Shown here piece after piece: positions 16,406 to 36,102 of a DNA stretch of 36,102 nt. The notes beneath the pieces were generated by a model. The model did not search any database and was not told the origin of the DNA. It was given only the letters and a program-made list of their open reading frames with translations. Position 1 is the stretch's first letter. Each line of letters opens with the position of its first letter. The stretch is from positions 1 to 36,102 of the IMG/VR virus record IMGVR_UViG_3300020172_000340; one strand, 5' to 3'. The position numbers and the translations under genes are program-made. The DNA comes from a virus.

Positions 16406-17515
16406 TCAGGAAATTGCGCCACCGAGAGTGTTCATGATGACACGGGACTCGTGGGTGATTACACCGAAGCCCCAGATTGCGTACCACGAGAGACCATGCT
16501 CACGACCGAAGTCGATCACACCGCCGTCACGCAGTTCAACCGGGAGGGCAATTGCCTGACCAAAGGCATTGTCACCGATCATGATTGCGTTGTAGGCGTT
16601 GGCGTTCTCTTGGAAGCCTGCTGAACCACTGGTGTCAAGGTCCGAGCCAAGACCGTACAGCGGAGCGGTGCTCGCTGTTGCGTCAAGACCCTTTGCCACC
16701 TGAGTGGTTTCGATGAACACGACGTCATAGAGACGACCGATTTCACCGAGCATGAAGTTGCCGGGAGCGGCGTACTTCGTGACTTCGATGAACTCAGGCC
16801 AGTCACGGAGTGAACGTGCCTGTGCCGGGTGTACGAAGCAGACATAGGTGTCACCGAGACGTGGGATGTTCTGGCTGGCGAGAACCTCAACTGCGTCCTT
16901 AACAGCCGCAGGCGAGAGGTAGCCGGGAGCCGAAGCAGAACCGAGGGTTCCAGCGTCGTATGGGCTGATGGAGCCACGGCTTGCCGCCGCAGTGCGACCG
17001 AACACAACGCTCGGAGCAACAGCCGCACCACCAGAGAACGGAACACCAGCCTTGTAGAGGGTGTTACGAGCCTGAATGTCCATGCTTTGTGCCATGTGAC
17101 GACCGAGGAGACGTGAAGCCGAAGCCATGACGTCGTCGAACGATGCATTGAGCAACAGTTCGGTGACGGCAACAGCCTGACCCTGTTCCTTGACGGTGAT
17201 CTGAATCTGGCTGGCGCTGAGTGCCACAGGCTCCATACGAACACCTTCGGTCAGTTCGGCACCAACCGACTGATCAACCGTGAGGTTGCTGTAACGCATG
17301 AAGTTGATTGTGAGACCCGGCATAACGCCAAGTTCAGTCTTCTTAACTGCGAACTGCTCAAAGCGAAGAATTGGCATCGCTTGGAACAGGATTTCCTTAG
17401 ACCAAATGGTCTGAATTGCTGGGGAGAGGGTTGCATCGCTTGTGTAGCCTGTCGTGCTGATAGCCGACAAGTCTGCACCAGTGATGGTACCTCCTACGGG
17501 ACCGGGAAGGGCCAT
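16406..17515 (-). CDS. Major capsid protein, N4-gp56-like
   Basis: The protein has 369 residues and a GGAGG SD before ATG. Residues 38-90 (IWSKEILFQAMPILRFEQFA, then KKTELGVMPGLTINFMRY) match the N4-gp56 type of HK97-fold capsid proteins: 'w..e.l..a.p.l.f.qfa.....lp...G.ti.f.ry'. Next comes the ELTEGVRMEPVALSASQIQI segment and a long helix (TELLLNASFDDVMASASRLL), the expected spine helix. The later 'YVCFVHPAQARSLRDWPEFI' segment is the conserved 'v.vhP....l..d..f' strand. There is no fused protease or long delta domain. It follows a scaffold-like gene and precedes decoration-sized genes. Confidence 0.93.
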   Translation of the reverse strand: MALPGPVGGTITGADLSAISTTGYTSDATLSPAIQTIWSKEILFQAMPILRFEQFAVKKTELGVMPGLTINFMRYSNLTVDQSVGAELTEGVRMEPVALSASQIQITVKEQGQAVAVTELLLNASFDDVMASASRLLGRHMAQSMDIQARNTLYKAGVPFSGGAAVAPSVVFGRTAAASRGSISPYDAGTLGSASAPGYLSPAAVKDAVEVLASQNIPRLGDTYVCFVHPAQARSLRDWPEFIEVTKYAAPGNFMLGEIGRLYDVVFIETTQVAKGLDATASTAPLYGLGSDLDTSGSAGFQENANAYNAIMIGDNAFGQAIALPVELRDGGVIDFGREHGLSWYAIWGFGVITHESRVIMNTLGGAIS

Positions 17516-17551: not shown

Positions 17552-18346
17552 TTAGAAACGACCTCTATTGGGTCGTGATTGCAGGAGCCTGTCTCGCATC
17601 TTTACATACTGATCCATCGGCATATTGCGGATATCATCCGCTGTCAGAGTTTGGTATTCCGTTTGAGTTTCCATTGGCCCAATAGGGGGTGCCGTTGGTG
17701 ACACTCCCCTCAAACGACCTTGCTGTTGCTGGGTCGCCTGTTGGATAGACTCAATAATAGCAGAACTACGTTCACGAAGTACTGCGATTGAATTCTCAAT
17801 CTCTTCTTCCGTGTTACCCGAAACCAAATCAATCAGTTCTGGGATGATGTTCTCCTGTTCTTCAGCCATACGACGACCTGTGTAGGAGTTCAACTCCTGA
17901 AGTCGGCGTTCTTTTTCCAGCAATGCTTCTTGCTGGGTCCGCTGTGATTCGATTTCCTCGAAACGACGGCGGTAGTCCTGATCAATTGACTCTAATTTTG
18001 AATTGAATTCTTCTTCACGCTTAAGAAGAAGTTCCTTAGCGCTCATTTCCTGCTCTTCACGCTGGCGGATGAGTTCCTGCTCCGTACGAGCCTTTTCATC
18101 GGCTTCTTTACGAGCGGCTTCACGCTCAGCAGTAAGTTCTGACATCTGCTCTTCCATGCTTTTAACACGGACGTCAGCCTCTTCAATGCGCTTGTAGAGT
18201 TTGTCCTTTTCCTGTTGGCGGATTCTCTCCACCTCATCTTCAGTAAAAATCTTGCCCTTTGGCTGTGGATTTGTTACTTCTTCATGCCCCTGCTCAAAAG
18301 CAGGAACGATAACGATGTCCCCTTCGGGGACGTTGGTCTTAGCCAT
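17552..18346 (-). CDS. Capsid scaffolding protein
   Basis: The protein has 264 residues, is strongly charged and almost entirely helical. From about residue 35 to 160 it is a coiled coil of Glu/Lys/Arg/Gln heptads. A second helical part (about 165-210) and a Gln-rich linker precede a C-terminal basic hook of the form ADDIRNMPMDQYVKMRDRLL, then QSRPNRGRF. A coiled-coil body with a short C-terminal helix that binds the capsid protein is the general design of scaffold proteins. It stands between the portal and the capsid gene, the usual place. No protease domain is visible. Confidence 0.85.
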   Translation of the reverse strand: MAKTNVPEGDIVIVPAFEQGHEEVTNPQPKGKIFTEDEVERIRQQEKDKLYKRIEEADVRVKSMEEQMSELTAEREAARKEADEKARTEQELIRQREEQEMSAKELLLKREEEFNSKLESIDQDYRRRFEEIESQRTQQEALLEKERRLQELNSYTGRRMAEEQENIIPELIDLVSGNTEEEIENSIAVLRERSSAIIESIQQATQQQQGRLRGVSPTAPPIGPMETQTEYQTLTADDIRNMPMDQYVKMRDRLLQSRPNRGRF

Positions 18347-18395: not shown

Positions 18396-20084
18396 TTATT
18401 CTTCGTTAGGTACACGTCGCTGGGCGAACCTAGCACCGTATGCCTTTGAGACAATTTGGTTCATCAAGTTTTCTTCAATTTGGGGTAGTGCCCCAGTTCC
18501 GGGGAGTGGACCTTGATTAGGGTCTCCCTCTCCGGCTGGTGTTACATTACCACTTTCTGGACCTGCTGGCTGAGCGCCGTCAGGAAGCATTCCGGTGGTC
18601 ATCATAACTGCCATCTGTATCTGTGCTCGAAGCATGTCAAGGGCGCCTTGATCAAGTGCATCGTCACGGAGTTCTTCAAAGATTTCAAGCATCTTTTCGT
18701 TCGGGAATTCTTCACCAAGCAAGCGCAGTGCACCACGCTTTGACTCAAGACCAATAGCCATCTTTGCTTGCACTTCATTGAGTTTGATAAGCACATCAAC
18801 AGGCAAAGGCTCGGGCCAGTGAATTTCTGTTCTGTAGATCAATGGATCACGAGGGTCCAATTGGGTCAACTGATCAGGCTCCGGTGGAGCGGCGATCATT
18901 GGGTTGTACTGCAACATTTCTGGTTTGAAAATAGCCGCAGTGCGAATAATGATCTCGTTGATTCTTTCTAGACCTTTTGTGAAGTGGATTTTCTTCATCA
19001 TGTAGCGGTTCATCAAAGGCTGATATTGAATAGCCAATGCCACACCAGAAGTATTAGAAACAGGCTGGAATTGCCCAAGAGCGGTCTCTGGGACTCCAGT
19101 GACCTCGTGCATTGTGCGCTTTAAGAAACTTACATACTCCAAGGCGCCAGCCATGTTGCCCTTAGATTCAAGGTTAAAAACGCTTGCATCTTTTGGAAGA
19201 CCAGCCCAAACCTTCTTAGGTCCACGCTCCAACTGGCTTGCCTTAGCGCCAGTAATGATGGTCACAGGTGCGGCGTGGTAGTTGATGATGTCTGATACTT
19301 CGAGCATCTTTTCATTGAGTTCACGGTTCAAAGGAATGATGTCCCAAACGTCGCTTTGTCCCCAAGGAGACGATGAGATTGTTGTATTAGGAATGTGAAC
19401 TACTGGGATTGTGCCGATGGCATTTGGATACTCGTCAATCAACTCGTCGTTAATAAACTGCTGAACCAAGTCCTCTGACAAGATTTCTGTAAAGGTGTAA
19501 ACCTGACGTGTTCCTTCTGGAGAGGTACCCCAGAAACGGTATTTAAGTTTGAAGCGAAGAAGACGATCACGGTCATGAGGATGGTACTCAGGGAAGCAGT
19601 GCGCTGGGTTAAGAGGAATAACACGAATGCGCCCCTCGTGACCAAGACCGATGCTGTCCACGTATGGTTCCTCATAAGCAACCTTGACAAAGCAGTCGCC
19701 AGTTACAGAAGCCAACTGACCCATTTCCCACAATACGTAATGCTTATTGTTGTCAACTTCCCAGACGTTATGGAGGAGGTGTGGAATGATTGCTGAGTTC
19801 TGCTCTGGAGTACGGAACTGTACGCCTTTACCAAAACAAAAGTTAGTGATGTAGTCCGATAGGGTACGGACATAGTTCATGTAGAACTGTGATTCACCCA
19901 TCTCACGGCGATACGACCAGTGATGCCCCAAGTACCAAGCCCAAGCCGCTGAATAACGGTTGAGGCGAGGACCATGAACCTCAAACTCTTCGTCGGCAAG
20001 TTCGACTAGGCCAAGGGGTGAAATGGCAACAGTTAGGTCACTGGAAGATGCTCTATATGATGGTGACCAAAAGTCAATAGCCAT
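18396..20084 (-). CDS. Portal protein
   Basis: The protein has 562 residues. It shows the sequence of segments expected for a phage portal: NYVRTLSDYITNFCFGKGVQ near the N-terminus, DNNKHYVLWEMGQLASVTGD and CFVKVAYEEP, a beta wing (RIRVIPLNPAHCFPEYHPHD), then 'IPVVHIPNT' and SDVWDIIPLNRELNEKMLEV. The last stretch is the helical stem that begins the clip region. Residues around 340-400 (VTGVPETALGQFQPVSNTSG, VALAIQYQPLMNRYMMKKIH) match the 'tgvPe..lG....sn.SG.Al' motif of portals. The acidic, Pro/Gly-rich C-terminus (about 505-540) looks flexible. It forms the dodecameric DNA channel and docks the terminase. Confidence 0.95.
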   Translation of the reverse strand: MAIDFWSPSYRASSSDLTVAISPLGLVELADEEFEVHGPRLNRYSAAWAWYLGHHWSYRREMGESQFYMNYVRTLSDYITNFCFGKGVQFRTPEQNSAIIPHLLHNVWEVDNNKHYVLWEMGQLASVTGDCFVKVAYEEPYVDSIGLGHEGRIRVIPLNPAHCFPEYHPHDRDRLLRFKLKYRFWGTSPEGTRQVYTFTEILSEDLVQQFINDELIDEYPNAIGTIPVVHIPNTTISSSPWGQSDVWDIIPLNRELNEKMLEVSDIINYHAAPVTIITGAKASQLERGPKKVWAGLPKDASVFNLESKGNMAGALEYVSFLKRTMHEVTGVPETALGQFQPVSNTSGVALAIQYQPLMNRYMMKKIHFTKGLERINEIIIRTAAIFKPEMLQYNPMIAAPPEPDQLTQLDPRDPLIYRTEIHWPEPLPVDVLIKLNEVQAKMAIGLESKRGALRLLGEEFPNEKMLEIFEELRDDALDQGALDMLRAQIQMAVMMTTGMLPDGAQPAGPESGNVTPAGEGDPNQGPLPGTGALPQIEENLMNQIVSKAYGARFAQRRVPNEE

Positions 20085-20138: not shown

Positions 20139-20888
20139 TTAGCCGAAAAGTGGTGACTGACGGGATGCCATTGTCGTTTTTGTATTCTTTTGTTCTTTAC
20201 TTGCTTTGCGCTTTTCACTTGCTTTTTGTTTCATCTCGCCTAGAGACTGCTGGCGCTTTTGTTCAGTTTCATCAATGTTTTCTACGGTTCCCGGAAAGAG
20301 GAACATTCCTTGACCAGCGCCTGCTTCAAGTACACGCCTTCCGCCCTCGGTGTAGGTGTGTCGTGGTTTAGTTAGATACCCGTATGACACGTGCGTACCT
20401 ACGGGGTCGGTTGATGAAACGTACTCCTCTGGTGTTTCATCGATTTCAATACCGTGACCAAGCATCTTTTCTCGCACATCAGGCTTACCTAAATTTGCTT
20501 CTGTTACACCACGGTCGATGTTCCACACAGCCCATTGGTCTCCGCTCATAGCGGCTTTACGAGCCTGTTGTGAACCTTCCGGGGTATCTGGAAAGTTCTT
20601 AGAGACGTCTAAAACTCCGACATCTTCTCCTAAGCCGTAGTCAGATGATCTCCAAGTACCCAAGAAGTTGGTGGTGTCTTTAAACAGTTTTGAACGAGAA
20701 GGAGCCTCAACAAAACTAGATACAACTCCCGTATTCAACTTACTTACCGGAACTGGTTCTTCGTTACCGGGGATTGAAACCATAGTTCCCGTTGTTGGGA
20801 CATCCCCTGTCATTGGTTGTACCGTGTAGCCGGTACCTTTTACCGTCTCTTCAACAACCTTAGAGGGGTCGTACTTCCTCTTTGCCAT
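20139..20888 (-). CDS. Unknown protein upstream of portal
   Basis: The product has 249 residues. No domain is recognised. It is hydrophilic without a membrane segment. The N-terminal 110 residues look disordered and Pro/Gly/Ser-rich. A compact stretch includes QWAVWNIDRGVTEANLGKPD and THVSYGYLTKPRHTYTEGGR, then FLFPGTVENIDETEQKRQQS. The last 45 residues are a highly charged Lys/Gln helix. The gene starts two bases after the stop of the small membrane protein gene and precedes portal by 55 bases. A basic C-terminal helix near head genes could mean an internal or head-assembly protein, but this is only context. Confidence 0.7.
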   Translation of the reverse strand: MAKRKYDPSKVVEETVKGTGYTVQPMTGDVPTTGTMVSIPGNEEPVPVSKLNTGVVSSFVEAPSRSKLFKDTTNFLGTWRSSDYGLGEDVGVLDVSKNFPDTPEGSQQARKAAMSGDQWAVWNIDRGVTEANLGKPDVREKMLGHGIEIDETPEEYVSSTDPVGTHVSYGYLTKPRHTYTEGGRRVLEAGAGQGMFLFPGTVENIDETEQKRQQSLGEMKQKASEKRKASKEQKNTKTTMASRQSPLFG

Positions 20889-20890
20889 TG

Positions 20891-21178
20891 TTACGCCTTC
20901 TTTTTAGCGGCTGGCTTTTTAGCGGCTGTTTTCTGCTTGGCTACTTCTTTTTCAACTTCTGCAATAACTTTAGGGGCTTCAGCGGCGATCTTGGTGATGA
21001 AAGAAGCGACGTCCTTGTCACCAACCTTGGTGCTGGCGTAAGCAAGACCAGCGGTGATTACGGGGATGATAGATGCTTGGATTGCTGGGTCAACATTGCC
21101 CTTGGCAAGAAAGTATGCAACGGCGCCGATAACAACGCCTTTAATAGTCTGGTCGGTGACCTGTGAACCTGTGCTCAT
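20891..21178 (-). CDS. Small membrane protein with Lys/Ala tail (holin candidate)
   Basis: The product has 95 residues and an AGGAG SD before ATG. Residues 10-28 (TIKGVVIGAVAYFLAKG) and 34-50 (QASIIPVITAGLAYAST) are two short hydrophobic helices. An amphipathic helix follows, and the last 20 residues are Lys/Ala-rich (KTAAKKPAAKKKA), like histone H1 tails. Two helices followed by a positively charged cytoplasmic tail is the usual design of small class II holins. An alternative is a DNA- or membrane-associated head protein, because the gene sits between the proteasome-like and head genes rather than near the endolysin. Function is uncertain. Confidence 0.55.
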   Translation of the reverse strand: MSTGSQVTDQTIKGVVIGAVAYFLAKGNVDPAIQASIIPVITAGLAYASTKVGDKDVASFITKIAAEAPKVIAEVEKEVAKQKTAAKKPAAKKKA

Positions 21179-21211: not shown

Positions 21212-21817
21212 CTAGGTTTGTATAAATGTGTTAAAAGGAGCACCTGTGAATGGGTCAAACTTTGACGCAATTTGAAGCGCTTTAAGGACCGCTGTTTTGA
21301 TTTGAGACTGCTGTGGCTTCTTAGTACCAATCATCGAAGATAGCGCCCCTAAAGCGTACATAGACCCCGATCCGGTGGCGTATACACCAGAGGCGTCGGG
21401 GGTCCATGAATAGTCCCCGTCAATTAGATAGATGTGTTTGTTTACAACGACCAACACCGACGAGTTGTGTTGCGCCATGTGATCTTTGTCTTCCTTACCG
21501 TCTGGTGGAGAGTACCCCTGAGAATCAAAACAACTCCGTAAAGACGGAACAAACTTGTTAGCGATAAAAGCGTCCAGTTTCTTACCCTTGGTGTTAGGCG
21601 GTGGTACTGGTGGTTGAAATACATGGTGCAGAATATTTATTGCCCTCATGTCACCAGCGGCACCCAACAGGTATTTACCGTTTAGAGCGACCTTGCTGGT
21701 TCCAGAAGCCATGGACATGATCTGGTACGGAACTCCAGATTCGTCTGTGTAGGAGATACGGGTGTCACACCCTACAACAACAAAACCATCCCCTTGAACC
21801 GCCACGAGAGTAGTCAT
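21212..21817 (-). CDS. Proteasome beta-subunit-like Ntn-hydrolase (putative protease)
   Basis: The protein has 201 residues and opens MTTLVAVQGDGFVVVGCDTR. Removing Met exposes a Thr nucleophile directly, without a propeptide. With that Thr as residue 1, Asp is at 17 and Arg at 19, as in 20S proteasome beta subunits. The Lys of the active site is probably K42 (TSKVALNGKYLLGAAGD), after an insertion of about eight residues. GSGSMYALGAL (149-159) matches the 'GSGs.yA.g.L' segment that carries the catalytic-site Ser, and D188-P-F-T191 matches the 'D..t/s' pair. The stop of the phosphoesterase gene overlaps this start (TAATG). Only the beta-type module is present, with no ATPase partner in the window. 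It may act in head maturation or against host proteins; no classical prohead protease is seen here. Confidence 0.85.
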   Translation of the reverse strand: MTTLVAVQGDGFVVVGCDTRISYTDESGVPYQIMSMASGTSKVALNGKYLLGAAGDMRAINILHHVFQPPVPPPNTKGKKLDAFIANKFVPSLRSCFDSQGYSPPDGKEDKDHMAQHNSSVLVVVNKHIYLIDGDYSWTPDASGVYATGSGSMYALGALSSMIGTKKPQQSQIKTAVLKALQIASKFDPFTGAPFNTFIQT

Positions 21818-22974
21818 TAGGAACCGAAGACTTTGCCCTTATAGAACATCTTACCGTCATGTATACAAAGCATCTCTGGGTGAAAAGGTCCTTCACCTTC
21901 TTGGTAATGGATAATTCCGAGACCCTGTTGCCAGTCCTCTACGCAGGTAATGGGGCGACCATCTAGGTCAATACCACCCTTGGTTGACGGTACAGCACCG
22001 TCTACACGGGCAAGACATCCGAATGAGATAGCGGCGATGGTCTTGGCACCATCCCAATCTTGACGGGTGCGCTCCGCCCACTCACGGCGGTGGATGTGAC
22101 CGTAGACCACTGATGTCTTCTCAGTTGCTAGGTACTTGTGAGCAGTAGAACCGTTAGAGGCAACCTTGCTTCCATGAATGATCTTGATGCGGTTATTGAG
22201 CCAGAACTGACTCGCTGGGTAGCCGGGGAGATACTCCACACCAAAGTCGTCAAAACGGCAGAGGAATGGGAGGCTCAACACGGGCCACGAGTCAGGAGTG
22301 TTACCACGCTTCAAACCAAAAGACGCCTTGGCATTGTCCAAGATGTAGTTGGTCAAACGAGCCTCGTGGTTGCCTTCCAACCAAACGATTCGAGCATTAG
22401 GAGCCGCATCACGTAGACGAGCACACAATGTGGTTAGGTAGTCAATTGTTGCTTGTGTGGTGAGCGCAAACGCTGGACTCAAACGGTATTTACCAAACTC
22501 CGGTAGGTCGGCGTTGTCTCCGTTGAGGGCAATGATGTCTGGTTTTTCTTGTTTAGCAATACTGATTGCAAAGTCAATGGCATTCTCGTCATGAGTAGAA
22601 ACCAAGGTTCCGTCCATCGCACGGAAGTATCCAGCCTGAATGTCTGGCAAAACCAAGCACTTCTTCCACTCAGAGATGGTGGACTTTACAGTTACTTTAG
22701 GAAGTTTGATTGCCGGACCTTGATGAACAGGGTTCCACTCTGGTCCGGTTTCCCATGCTGGTGAGAACTGGATACCCATGAGATCGTGAATCTCAGCGTC
22801 ACCTTCCTCGTTCTTGGTCAGTGACTGGTAAAGAGATACACGCTTGATCTCACCAACTTCTTCGATGCTGATGTTCTGACGCTCTAAGAGTTCAGCGAGT
22901 TTGCCTAGTGTCTTAGTTTTTGTTTCTGGAGGTGAGGAAAGGCTTGCCGCAAGTTCACTCACAACCACAACCAC
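21817..22974 (-). CDS. Calcineurin-like metallophosphoesterase
   Basis: The protein has 385 residues. The core has the metallophosphoesterase motifs in order: LVLPDIQAG (D111-x-Q113, where most families have DxH), NGDNAD (G152-D153-x-x-D156), LEGNHEARL (G201-N-H-E204), IIHGSK (H267) and VVYGHIHRRE (G292-H293-x-H295). These coordinate two metal ions for hydrolysis of phosphomonoesters or phosphodiesters. Residues 1-100 form an N-terminal part without a known domain. The start is GTG, and several in-frame GTG codons at 22974, 22968 and 22962 make the exact start uncertain. It overlaps the upstream small HTH-like gene by about 20 bases. The substrate is unknown; a DNA end-processing, RNA-repair or nucleotide-signal role is possible. 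Confidence 0.92.
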   Translation of the reverse strand: MVVVVSELAASLSSPPETKTKTLGKLAELLERQNISIEEVGEIKRVSLYQSLTKNEEGDAEIHDLMGIQFSPAWETGPEWNPVHQGPAIKLPKVTVKSTISEWKKCLVLPDIQAGYFRAMDGTLVSTHDENAIDFAISIAKQEKPDIIALNGDNADLPEFGKYRLSPAFALTTQATIDYLTTLCARLRDAAPNARIVWLEGNHEARLTNYILDNAKASFGLKRGNTPDSWPVLSLPFLCRFDDFGVEYLPGYPASQFWLNNRIKIIHGSKVASNGSTAHKYLATEKTSVVYGHIHRREWAERTRQDWDGAKTIAAISFGCLARVDGAVPSTKGGIDLDGRPITCVEDWQQGLGIIHYQEGEGPFHPEMLCIHDGKMFYKGKVFGS

Positions 22975-23500: not shown

Positions 23501-24211
23501 TCAATCGACGATACCGTGTTGACGGCGCCAGTTGACCCACGCAATGGCTTGTGTTTGGTTTGGGATAGTAACTCCCATATCTGCCAAACGGTGAGTTGCG
23601 GCAACGTGGGCATTTACAAATGTATTGTATCGACCAATGGTTTGAAGACCTAAATCTGGTTCTTCACCGCCAACAGATACCGCTCGTTTGTTAACTGCGG
23701 AAGCGTGTGCGTGACGATCAATGGTTACTGGTTCTGGATCAGATGGGTTATACAAGTTTCTGTAAAAGTGACCAGTTTTTTTAGTCATTGGTAGCACAGC
23801 GCTTGGGTCTTCACCTTCACGAATGCGTCGTGCTTGCGAAACTTGCTGTGCTGTGTGTCCGGCTTTTCCGGTACGCATCATATCTTCAGCAATTTTTATA
23901 TTTAAATCCCACCGCTTTTGAGGACTTAAAGCCGCAATGATTCCGGCTCCCATACGAACATCGCCACGGCCAGTGTTTCCTGCAATTTCCTGTCCTTTGG
24001 GATACCACACCATACCCGACGCAATATCTTCATCGCTTGCAGAACGGACTTGATGTTCAATATTACGAACCATGGTTGAAAATTGGAGTGGGTGTAGAGA
24101 CTTACCTTGTATGCCTATAAGGGATTGTCCCTTTGGAGGATGCACAGTTTTAGGTGTATAACTTATCCCCTTTGGAACAACGAGACCACTTTCTCTTTCT
24201 TCCATGTCCAT
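23501..24211 (-). CDS. Unknown phage protein with IDRHA motif
   Basis: The product has 236 residues. The core from about residue 85 has MGAGIIAALSPQKRWDLNIK, then a helical section, KKTGHFYRNLYNP, VTIDRHAHASAVNKR and a C-terminal helical part with QAIAWVNWRRQHG. The pattern 'iaalSP...W..N', 'K...Fy.nl..P', 'tiDrhA' is one I associate with unclassified actinophage proteins, and its helical layout with an Asp in 'IDRHA' recalls helix-hairpin-helix DNA glycosylase folds. That last link is only a suggestion. The first 75 residues are basic and flexible. Its start overlaps the previous gene's stop by one base (TGATG), and its stop is one base before the membrane protein start. Confidence 0.6.
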   Translation of the reverse strand: MDMEERESGLVVPKGISYTPKTVHPPKGQSLIGIQGKSLHPLQFSTMVRNIEHQVRSASDEDIASGMVWYPKGQEIAGNTGRGDVRMGAGIIAALSPQKRWDLNIKIAEDMMRTGKAGHTAQQVSQARRIREGEDPSAVLPMTKKTGHFYRNLYNPSDPEPVTIDRHAHASAVNKRAVSVGGEEPDLGLQTIGRYNTFVNAHVAATHRLADMGVTIPNQTQAIAWVNWRRQHGIVD

Positions 24212-25116: not shown

Positions 25117-26676
25117 CTAACGATAGAACGGATTGTCTGCCACCGTAATGGAGGGCATAACCTCATGGAAGGTCATTGCACAGGCGATGGCTAGGCTGTC
25201 TGGGAAGTCGTCGAATGCGCCCTTTTCATTTGGGGCGGCGGCAAGCAAGTATGGACCTTTATATACTTTTTCTAGATCAGCCATTTGTTGATTGAACTTT
25301 TTCCAAGTCCTTACACGCCGTGCTTTTGAATGACCCGGAATAATGAGTTGATCTCTTTGAATCAACTCCGTCAAATGAACCCATCGTTCATGTTGTGCTT
25401 TGGCGTCTGACGATACAGCAATTACTTCAATGTCTGGAAGGAGCAACTGAAGGCGCTCCGCTACGGCTCCACCAACACCTTGGGCGTCCACACCCATACG
25501 AAGTACATCGTAATTGCGGATGAAATCTATTATTTGAAAATACTGCGATTCCCACTCTTCGTTGTTGATTTCTAACCAGTTGAGAACACGGTGTTCATAG
25601 AAACCAAAGGGGTCTTGATGATCCCAGTCCACCCATACGGCTGTGACGACCGTTGAGTCCGTAGCACGGGCGACGTCCACACCAACCACAATTGGAGTGC
25701 GCCACCATTGTTTGACTAATCCCATGGACGGGTCATACATGCGCTCCATGCGTTCTTCGGTGACGAACATACCCTTTTCAAGGATGAACTTATTACAATA
25801 AGACATCTGGAACTCGTCTGAGTCTTCGCCAATACGTAGTTTTTCTTTAGCAATGAACTTGGCGTAGTTGTCGTTGTACTTGGCGGCGGTCTTCCAGTCG
25901 TACTCAAAGTGACATGACCGGAGGCGCTTATTGTTTACCATCCGCCTCTTGTTGTATTGGATCATGCGGTAGAAATAGGACTTCTGACGGTTTGCCGTTC
26001 CCGTCAAACAAATGGAGCCGTTATTAAACGCCAGCATCGGCTTGATGGATTTGGTAATCATTACCTCGTCGGCTTCTTGTGCCTCATCCACGAGGACAAA
26101 GTGGTAGGTCTTAGATTCGATCTTGGCTTTCGGGTTACATGTCTGCATACGGCAGAGTGAACCTGACTTACGGAGCGTGATGAGTTTGCCCTTGCCACGG
26201 GAACCTCCTGAATCAGCCTTGTCGTCGATCTCGGGGTCAAGAAGGAATTCAACCGCATGCTCATTGGTTAGTGCGGTCACGATACGACCAAAGACGGTGT
26301 CTGCCTGCTCTTCAACAGGGGCAAATACGCCGACCCAAAAACCCTTAGAGAATTTGCCCAACCACGTTGGGTACACCTTGGACAGACGTGGCAGTAGCAC
26401 CATCATTGACGCCAGAACCTTGGAAAGCACTTCCGATTTACCGGACTGACGGGTCGCAACCACTGTCATTTCTTCACCGTCGCCCAAGATGATGGACTCT
26501 ATGAGACGGTAAGCGATGGGAATCTGGTACGGAAACAACTCAATGTCACAGAATTCCTCTGTAAAGATTATGCACCGTTTAACTAGTTGATCTATGAACT
26601 CAGCAGAAGTCTCATCCAATTCTTCTTGGATGTCTTCAAGTTCATTTGCCTCTAATTGTTGGTCATCTGTGAGCAC
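25117..26676 (-). CDS. terL: Terminase large subunit
   Basis: The protein has 519 residues and pumps DNA into the prohead and cuts it. Walker A is VATRQSGKSE (73-82, T4-like 'RQsGKS'), Walker B is FVLVDEAQE (193-201) and the coupling motif is LTGTANR (224-230). The RNase H-like nuclease domain shows GVDVAR (D334), GVDAQG (D397) and the DDFPDSLA segment (D490/D493). The start is GTG at 26676. An in-frame TAA lies four codons upstream, so no longer start exists, and there is no SD. A -10-like TAAACT ends six bases before the GTG, so the message may be leaderless. The gene directly follows an intrinsic terminator, suggesting a new transcription unit. No small subunit is adjacent. Confidence 0.96.
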   Translation of the reverse strand: MLTDDQQLEANELEDIQEELDETSAEFIDQLVKRCIIFTEEFCDIELFPYQIPIAYRLIESIILGDGEEMTVVATRQSGKSEVLSKVLASMMVLLPRLSKVYPTWLGKFSKGFWVGVFAPVEEQADTVFGRIVTALTNEHAVEFLLDPEIDDKADSGGSRGKGKLITLRKSGSLCRMQTCNPKAKIESKTYHFVLVDEAQEADEVMITKSIKPMLAFNNGSICLTGTANRQKSYFYRMIQYNKRRMVNNKRLRSCHFEYDWKTAAKYNDNYAKFIAKEKLRIGEDSDEFQMSYCNKFILEKGMFVTEERMERMYDPSMGLVKQWWRTPIVVGVDVARATDSTVVTAVWVDWDHQDPFGFYEHRVLNWLEINNEEWESQYFQIIDFIRNYDVLRMGVDAQGVGGAVAERLQLLLPDIEVIAVSSDAKAQHERWVHLTELIQRDQLIIPGHSKARRVRTWKKFNQQMADLEKVYKGPYLLAAAPNEKGAFDDFPDSLAIACAMTFHEVMPSITVADNPFYR

Positions 26677-29534: not shown

Positions 29535-30572
29535 TTATTTTAAGGAATCTTCATAGAACTTAAGGTTTGAAGAAAGTCTCTGGTCGTTTTGGTTATGAGA
29601 AAGAGCAAGTTTTCCATTTTCAAAAGCCGCCGAGAATTCCCCAAGACGATATGAAGCAATTGCTAAAAGGTCATGCGGCAACCAACTCCATGAGTCTGAC
29701 TCGCAAAGATAATCCATTGGCTTTGTAGTAATTCTCAAAGCCCTACTTGCAAAATACTTACAGGATTCCCAATCAGCACATTCATAAAAATGCTGGCTTA
29801 GTAAAACCCATGTTTCTCGTCTGTTGCGATCTTCGGCAACTGCCATCCAAAGGTATTTTTCGTCTTTGGTTATTTTGTAAAGATACCTATAGGCAGAGGC
29901 TCGCTCTGGGGTCCAATTTGCCAATTCCAAATAGCGGTTGAATTGCTCAACTGCTTTGTCATTCATTCCATGAAAAAAGTATTCTCGCCCTAAATAATAT
30001 CTGTTTCTATCATTATTTGGGTCTTCCTCTACTGCCAGTTCAAGCAAGGGAAAATACTGACTTCTTGATTTTGAAGAATCTGGATGATGATGGATTATTA
30101 ATCCACACCAATTTTGTATTTCTTGTGTGACTGGATAAAGGACTTCGTGAACTGGATGCTTCCAGATATAACCATGACGTGCGTGGATTTTGTCTCCACC
30201 ATAAACTAATCCTTCAGACCCATCATCGTTCCACGACCAGACATACTTATAGCGTGGACGGGTTGTCTCTTTAGGCATTGCCTCTAGACACTCTCTCCAT
30301 CCTTCTTGTAGGACTTCATCCATATCTAAAGCAATACAGATGTCAATATCATCCGGGATGAGGCTCAGTGCTTTGTTGCGAGCAACATCAAAGCGCCAAG
30401 GGTTGAACACTTCCTTGCTTACATTGACACCGCAATTGAGTGCTTCAACCATTGTTCCGTCAGTTGAGCCAGTATCAAGAATTAATCTGAAATCTGCATC
30501 CCGACATGAATTGGCCCAGCGCTTGACAAACTGTTCTTCGTTTTTAGCGATTGTATAAACCGCAATTTTCAT
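29535..30572 (-). CDS. GT2-type glycosyltransferase with TPR tail
   Basis: The protein has 345 residues. Residues 1-115 hold a GT-A nucleotide-sugar fold with MKIAVYTIAKNEEQFVKRW, LILDTGSTDGT (30-40) and IALDMDEV (D83-x-D85, the metal/nucleotide motif). Then follow WKHPVHEVLYPV and about 160 residues of TPR-like helices (NRYYLGREYFFHGMNDKAVE, then YECADWESCKYFASRALRIT). Such GT2-TPR proteins transfer sugars to proteins or surface polymers, using the TPR to bind the acceptor. The gene stands between the Thr-rich collagen-like fibre and the OB-fold gene, 11 bases after the fibre stop. The likely acceptor is the fibre, but this is inference. Confidence 0.88.
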   Translation of the reverse strand: MKIAVYTIAKNEEQFVKRWANSCRDADFRLILDTGSTDGTMVEALNCGVNVSKEVFNPWRFDVARNKALSLIPDDIDICIALDMDEVLQEGWRECLEAMPKETTRPRYKYVWSWNDDGSEGLVYGGDKIHARHGYIWKHPVHEVLYPVTQEIQNWCGLIIHHHPDSSKSRSQYFPLLELAVEEDPNNDRNRYYLGREYFFHGMNDKAVEQFNRYLELANWTPERASAYRYLYKITKDEKYLWMAVAEDRNRRETWVLLSQHFYECADWESCKYFASRALRITTKPMDYLCESDSWSWLPHDLLAIASYRLGEFSAAFENGKLALSHNQNDQRLSSNLKFYEDSLK

Positions 30573-30582
30573 ATTGTTCCTA

Positions 30583-36102
<5,520 letters not shown>

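Follow-up and report, generated by a model that had tools for sequence, protein, structure and literature searches.

A proteasome-like peptidase gene of phages that is present or absent beside one and the same head module

The viral DNA examined here (positions 1 to 36,102 of IMG/VR virus record IMGVR_UViG_3300020172_000340; this whole 36,102-nucleotide stretch is called the window) carries at 21212-21817 a gene whose product is a real proteasome-family Ntn hydrolase, with a resemblance to that family far beyond chance. The protein is probably an accessory, propeptide-free Thr peptidase of the BPH/HslV type that acts on proteins in infected, probably actinobacterial, cells. A sequence-only reading of this DNA had considered the arrangement to be new; the kind of gene is in fact already known, from phage proteasome homologues published in 2021 (PMC8665760) and from a named PHROG family. 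What is new is the detail: the coupling of the gene to a phosphoesterase gene, its strict either/or exchange with a slot protein of ~95-110 amino acids, and a nearly phage-only clade in actinobacteriophages.

Family, fold and active site

The gene product matched PF00227 (Proteasome) in Pfam with an E-value of 8.9e-7 (29.2 bits, with the cut-off at 22.4), and in PHROGs it matched PHROG 1040, "peptidase HslV family", with an E-value of 2.4e-21 (77.6 bits). Two narrower assignments from NCBIfam were rejected: the HslV equivalog, at 32 bits vs. a cut-off of 137-158 (137/157.75), and the bacterial 20S beta (PrcB) equivalog, at 14.3 bits vs. a cut-off of 191.9. When profiles were compared, 20S_bact_beta yielded an E-value of 0.025, vs. 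5e-8 for HslV.

The AlphaFold2 model of the 201-residue protein had a pLDDT of 90.8 and a pTM of 0.87. Structure prediction had been proposed as a check of the sequence-only reading, and an Ntn fold was indeed predicted. The closest solved fold was that of BPH (5ovt; Z 20.4, rmsd 2.4 Å, 173 residues aligned), with 20S beta subunits and HslV next at Z about 18-19; among the best 1000 chains from Foldseek, every one had a Z of at least 8. Model residues 2-201 align to residues 1-187 of the BPH chain, and T2 pairs with BPH Thr1. Helices are predicted at 57-65 and 78-99, the helix H2 being present, while the model is less confident in the loop at 100-119, whose charge is mixed. Thirty-four viral models in BFVD matched the model (E up to 1e-3), the top one annotated as an HslV peptidase of an uncultured Caudovirales phage.

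The gene and the codons of its active-site positions are as follows.

21212-21817, minus strand: proteasome-like Ntn hydrolase (phrog_1040), 201 amino acids, ATG start; the subject of this report
21812-21814, minus strand: Thr2, the catalytic Thr1 once Met is removed; invariant, aligned to BPH Thr1
21764-21766, minus strand: Asp18 (Asp17 in Thr1 numbering); at least 90% conserved, Glu in one homologue
21692-21694, minus strand: Lys42, the Lys33 equivalent; invariant
21653-21655, minus strand: Gly55 (Gly47 region), within the clade signature GAAGDMRAINIL; invariant
21362-21373, minus strand: GSGS segment, residues 149-152; G149 and G151 invariant, aligns with GSGS of BPH
21245-21256, minus strand: Asp188-Pro-Phe-Thr191 (Asp166 to Ser169 region); D188 and T191 at least 90% conserved

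Conservation was assessed in an alignment of 30 sequences, with homologues 38-93% identical to the window protein. In this alignment T2, K42, G55, G149 and G151 never vary, and conservation is at least 90% at D18, R20 (Arg19 in Thr1 numbering), D188 and T191. K42 falls at position 41, in the K33 region, preceded by an insertion of ~6-8 residues in the hairpin; G55 sits in the oxyanion-hole region, GAAGD; and the GSGS segment continues as G149-S150-G151-S152-M-Y-A. The claim that the proteasome active-site layout is intact (T2, D18, R20, K42, GSGS, D188-P-F-T191) is thus borne out by both the sequence and the alignment, as is the claim that the protein has no propeptide, Thr following Met directly. 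The N-terminal Thr, whose loss in homologues had been named as a point to check, is kept in all 30. An internal TAG in one homologue (G053) falls after residue 200, which is the natural end of the protein. Because dN/dS between pairs of homologues was 0.04-0.09, the gene is under strong purifying selection.

Comparison with known proteasome-like proteins

Of the 22 proteasome-like families newly described by Fuchs, Alva and Lupas (2021), PPH, AAH and CPH occur in phages (PMC8665760). The window protein resembles these three in that it is a group I proteasome-like protein without a propeptide, with the catalytic triad kept, and spread by phages. Membership in PPH was rejected on the basis of length and secondary structure, as PPH has ~140 residues and lacks helix H2, whereas the window protein has 201 residues and possesses it. 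As to carriers, the same survey reported AAH from no Actinobacteria-specific phage (PMC8665760), whereas the phages studied here look actinobacterial. BPH (5ovs/5ovt, 5ovu) is the best structural match and also the best profile match (E 1.6e-6), but the two share only ~20% identity and the BPH gene lies on a bacterial chromosome. BPH is a tetradecameric double ring with a long, highly acidic pore loop; for comparison, the loop at 100-119 of the phage model, of lower confidence, has mixed charge. HslV is similar in fold (Z about 18.6), in its C-terminal half and in its Met-Thr start; no HslU partner was found for the phage protein in the window-like phages searched, whose records are fragments, and a host HslU might serve instead. 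PHROG 1040 itself, represented by Moorella phage MTATph1 and Geobacillus virus E3, is scattered over unrelated phages in non-structural contexts; the window lineage differs from these in its location in a head/packaging operon and its coupling to a phosphoesterase gene. The window protein and those of L037, L055 and L058 (DSL-LC01) matched this PHROG with E-values of 6e-19 to 4e-24. Our search of the literature found no paper showing the function of any phage proteasome homologue, these proteins being known mainly from sequence surveys.

The protein could instead be a non-protease Ntn enzyme that kept the active site, for example a connectase-like protein ligase or a small-molecule amidase. 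The proteasome-like family does include connectase, a ligase (PMC8665760), and the phage members often lie near genes of nucleotide or NAD metabolism. Connectase, however, lacks H1-H2 and has a two-helix insertion, whereas the model shows both helices (57-65 and 78-99) and lacks that insertion; in addition, the nearest fold is that of BPH, a ring-forming homologue. We therefore deem a non-protease activity unlikely.

Neighboring genes in the window

The peptidase gene lies in the packaging/head block, as had been noted from the sequence, with two ORFs, of 95 and 249 amino acids, between it and the portal gene. Its neighbors are given below.

25117-26676, minus strand: terminase large subunit
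21817-22974, minus strand: metallophosphoesterase (PF00149, phrog_20266), whose stop overlaps the protease start by 1 nt (TAATG)
20891-21178, minus strand: small protein of 95 amino acids with one apparent hydrophobic stretch; no family above cut-off
20139-20888, minus strand: ORF of 249 amino acids adjoining the portal gene; present or absent among relatives, another variable slot
18396-20084, minus strand: portal protein (phrog_64), by phrog match
17552-18346, minus strand: charged, probably coiled-coil, scaffold-like protein, so called from its sequence and position; weak unrelated matches only
16406-17515, minus strand: major capsid protein (PF25209, PF13252, phrog_1357), by family matches

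The overlap of the phosphoesterase stop with the protease start suggests translational coupling. Elsewhere in the window, a DUF7178 protein (PF23802, E 1e-41; phrog_3842) is encoded between the terminase and phosphoesterase genes at 23501-24211 (minus strand). A glycosyltransferase of phrog_13126 (E 2e-105), assigned to the class moron/host takeover, lies at 29535-30572 (minus strand) and adjoins a gene at 30583-35412 (minus strand) for a collagen-like protein of 1609 amino acids with GPTGATG repeats. The C-terminus of the latter resembles a tail-spike intramolecular chaperone, and the protein is probably a tail or fibre protein.

Presence and absence of the gene beside one head module

A protein that matures the head should be inherited with the head genes. 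We fetched loci with a related portal and capsid and counted those with 2.5 kb or more of sequence on the upstream side of the portal gene. The protease gene was present in 65 of 98 such loci and absent from the remaining 33. After near-identical portals had been collapsed, 57 of 85 distinct portals had the gene and 28 did not. The portals of head-module relatives are 73-85% identical to that of the window (73-83% in protease-less loci), and the capsids of the protease-less loci are 76-88% identical to the window capsid, with one locus at 88%. The portal tree calls for at least five changes between presence and absence, two of them forced by well-supported branches.

In the protease-less loci an unrelated ORF of ~95-110 amino acids fills the slot between phosphoesterase and portal. 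The distance between these two genes is mostly 321-351 or 687-696 bases there, vs. 942-1023 bases in protease-bearing loci, or 1628-1772 where the 249-residue ORF is also present. Among loci with both flanks, 79 had the protease only, 34 the slot protein only, four neither and none both, in a tally that counts some contigs twice because two scans fetched them. The slot protein, recognizable by a W-x-D-A...GW... pattern, was seen in L148, L150, L104, L107, L112, L128, L161, L163 and others; two of the three variants scanned matched phrog_25889, of unknown function. Relocation of the protease gene in the protease-less phages was considered and rejected: a whole-record profile search of 16 records without the gene at the slot (15-95 kb) revealed no copy elsewhere, although, most virus records being fragments, this does not establish the absence for every single phage.

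These data bear directly on whether the protein is a head maturation protease, cleaving scaffold, capsid or portal inside the assembling prohead; such a protease was one of the options that the sequence-only reading had offered. Its appeal is plain, as in this phage group the gene is placed between those for terminase and portal, and no S78 or S14 protease was found in these phages. The earlier observation that no prohead protease is recognizable nearby also stands: S14 was not found in the window or in five related records, and neither S78 nor S14 was found in 25 related records, whether protease-bearing or protease-less. (An S77 profile was also searched, but its controls gave no signal.) The search of the 25 related records likewise speaks against replacement by another known protease, S78 or S14, in the protease-less phages. 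Since neither family was found in either set, the head lineage with a PF13252/PF25209 capsid seems to need no recognizable protease at all.

For this lineage we rejected a head-maturation role, as the same portal/capsid module occurs without the gene in a third of close relatives, despite their similar capsids. The capsid N-termini are alike in relatives with and without the protease; we saw no long pro-domain, and none that differed with the presence of the protease. Among the other homologues, some are encoded away from head modules and some occur together with an S78 protease. The S78 prohead protease is, like the window protein, a phage protease encoded near portal and capsid, but it belongs to an unrelated family that was not found in this head lineage and that occurs alongside the Ntn protein in group D (see below). 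A match to S78 was obtained in eight of 31 records carrying the Ntn gene (seven over the cut-off). In DSL-LC01, a metagenome-assembled genome, annotated capsid maturation protease genes lie directly upstream of the capsid gene, and the Ntn gene is ~25 kb away from them, next to WhiB. Finally, the capsid belongs to PF13252/PF25209, families that we take to include N4-like capsids, which presumably assemble without a protease. The published virion proteomics examined provided no answer on this gene. Taken with the evidence on both sides, head maturation is very improbable.

Distribution, exchange and hosts

By gene neighborhood, the 31 distinct homologues can be sorted into about six types.

Group A (window, L003, L022, L029, L034 and kin): terminase, phosphoesterase, protease, small ORF, portal
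Group B (L004-L006, L010-L012, L015, L020, L027): phosphoesterase, protease, WhiB regulator, Arc-like repressor
Group C (L007, L009, L013, L016, L026, L028; large phages for the most part): unknown genes
Group D (DSL-LC01 among them): small-ORF arrays and WhiB
Group E (L035, L056): in L056, genes for an exonuclease, a helicase and a primase lie beside the protease gene
L055: stands alone

L037 matches group B in part, with an exonuclease-family homologue in the place of the phosphoesterase. Where groups A and B have an upstream phosphoesterase, the protease start overlaps its stop or lies within 6 nt of it in 12 of 13 cases; for this reason the phosphoesterase gene, not the portal gene, is the more regular companion. 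Recognizable homologues also occur in 17 GenBank phage records, where they adjoin genes for ThyX, tRNA, RNA ligase, polynucleotide kinase, NAD metabolism and deaminases as well as small ORFs, and not head genes. Cultured actinobacteriophages with a homologue include Arthrobacter phages Pitbull and Hum25 and Microbacterium phage Pumpernickel.

The protease appears to have moved relative to its neighbors. The window protease shares 64% identity with group B proteins from loci without a detectable portal or capsid homologue, but only 53-56% with proteases of those group A phages whose portals and capsids reach 82-85% identity over full length. Group A is united with full support in the phosphoesterase tree but not in the protease tree, which thus conflicts with the head grouping as well. 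Replacement of the protease between phages within the group is likely but not proven, since the AU test of protease non-monophyly within the phage group was borderline (p 0.054-0.061); the protease may instead have evolved faster.

Two short patterns, run once against 84,980 prokaryote species genomes, found a single matching contig, which suggests that the clade is phage-specific or nearly so. This sole match (L059:6380-6982, plus strand) is on a contig binned into a gammaproteobacterial MAG; its WhiB-bearing relatives suggest that the contig is a misbinned actinobacteriophage. WhiB genes are present in 22 of 25 related records, and Corynebacterium is the sole one of 14 control genomes to have the WhiB family. 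The hosts are, on these grounds, probably actinobacterial.

Many Actinobacteria have a 20S proteasome. The phage protein might accordingly act on or join the host 20S particle, as a decoy or an extra beta subunit, a second option of the sequence-only reading that would fit both WhiB-bearing hosts and a fold similar to that of bacterial 20S beta (Z about 18). Yet bacterial 20S beta is more distant from the protein, in both sequence and fold, than BPH and HslV are, and related genes are also carried by phages whose hosts (Psychrobacter, Moorella, Ruegeria and Xanthomonas) lie outside Actinobacteria; we thus give such a role very little credence. Degradation of host proteins is the more likely of the options that had been put forward.

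Proposed mode of action and a possible unfoldase

How, then, would an accessory Thr peptidase of this type work? The gene would be expressed from an operon transcript on which its start codon overlaps the metallophosphoesterase stop, and removal of the initiator Met would expose Thr1. By analogy to BPH and HslV, the subunits would most likely assemble into a self-compartmentalizing ring, which might break down or trim proteins of the infected cell that are unfolded or brought by adaptors, either by itself or together with a host unfoldase. The gene would be exchanged between phages and be dispensable for head building. We infer a host-directed use because of this accessory behavior and the non-structural neighbors of the gene elsewhere. 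It should be weighed against the accessory reading that the gene is in the head operon here and is presumably co-expressed with head genes.

In a more elaborate arrangement, an AAA+ ring from the phage or the host would partner the peptidase to give an HslUV-like machine. Five of ten peptidase-bearing group C records encode a single-ring, ClpB/ClpA-D2-like AAA+ protein (E about 1e-53), and a search of eight group C records revealed no ClpP; both observations favor such a pairing. These genes are at the following positions.

L226:934-2382, plus strand: ClpB/ClpA-D2-like AAA+
L227:1174-2238, minus strand: ClpB/ClpA-D2-like AAA+
L228:1168-2589, minus strand: ClpB/ClpA-D2-like AAA+
L231 and L232: ClpB/ClpA-D2-like AAA+, also present

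An [AT]GF tripeptide, read by eye, lies at the position of the ClpP-docking loop of ClpA/ClpC. The AAA+ gene is not adjacent to the peptidase gene, however, and no AAA_2 protein was found in the window-like phages searched, whose records are fragmentary; this agrees with the earlier remark that no ATPase ring partner is visible, and a host unfoldase might still take part. An HslUV-like machine is an improbable explanation, and the group C AAA+ points to a possible unfoldase partner for no phages but those of group C.

The accessory peptidase favored here is a small, simple member of its family with well-defined relatives. For one lineage, natural presence/absence data argue against head maturation, an attractive role, and the coupling to the phosphoesterase gene, the either/or slot exchange and the possible phage AAA+ partner in larger relatives offer testable leads. 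It is conceivable, although we would put no great weight on it, that the GAAGDMRAINIL clade is an interchangeable host-takeover or counter-defence module of actinobacteriophages that replaces the ~95-110-residue slot protein and, in large relatives, may pair with a phage unfoldase. If so, the peptidase and the phage ClpB/ClpA-D2-like unfoldase would constitute a complete viral HslUV-like machine in those relatives.
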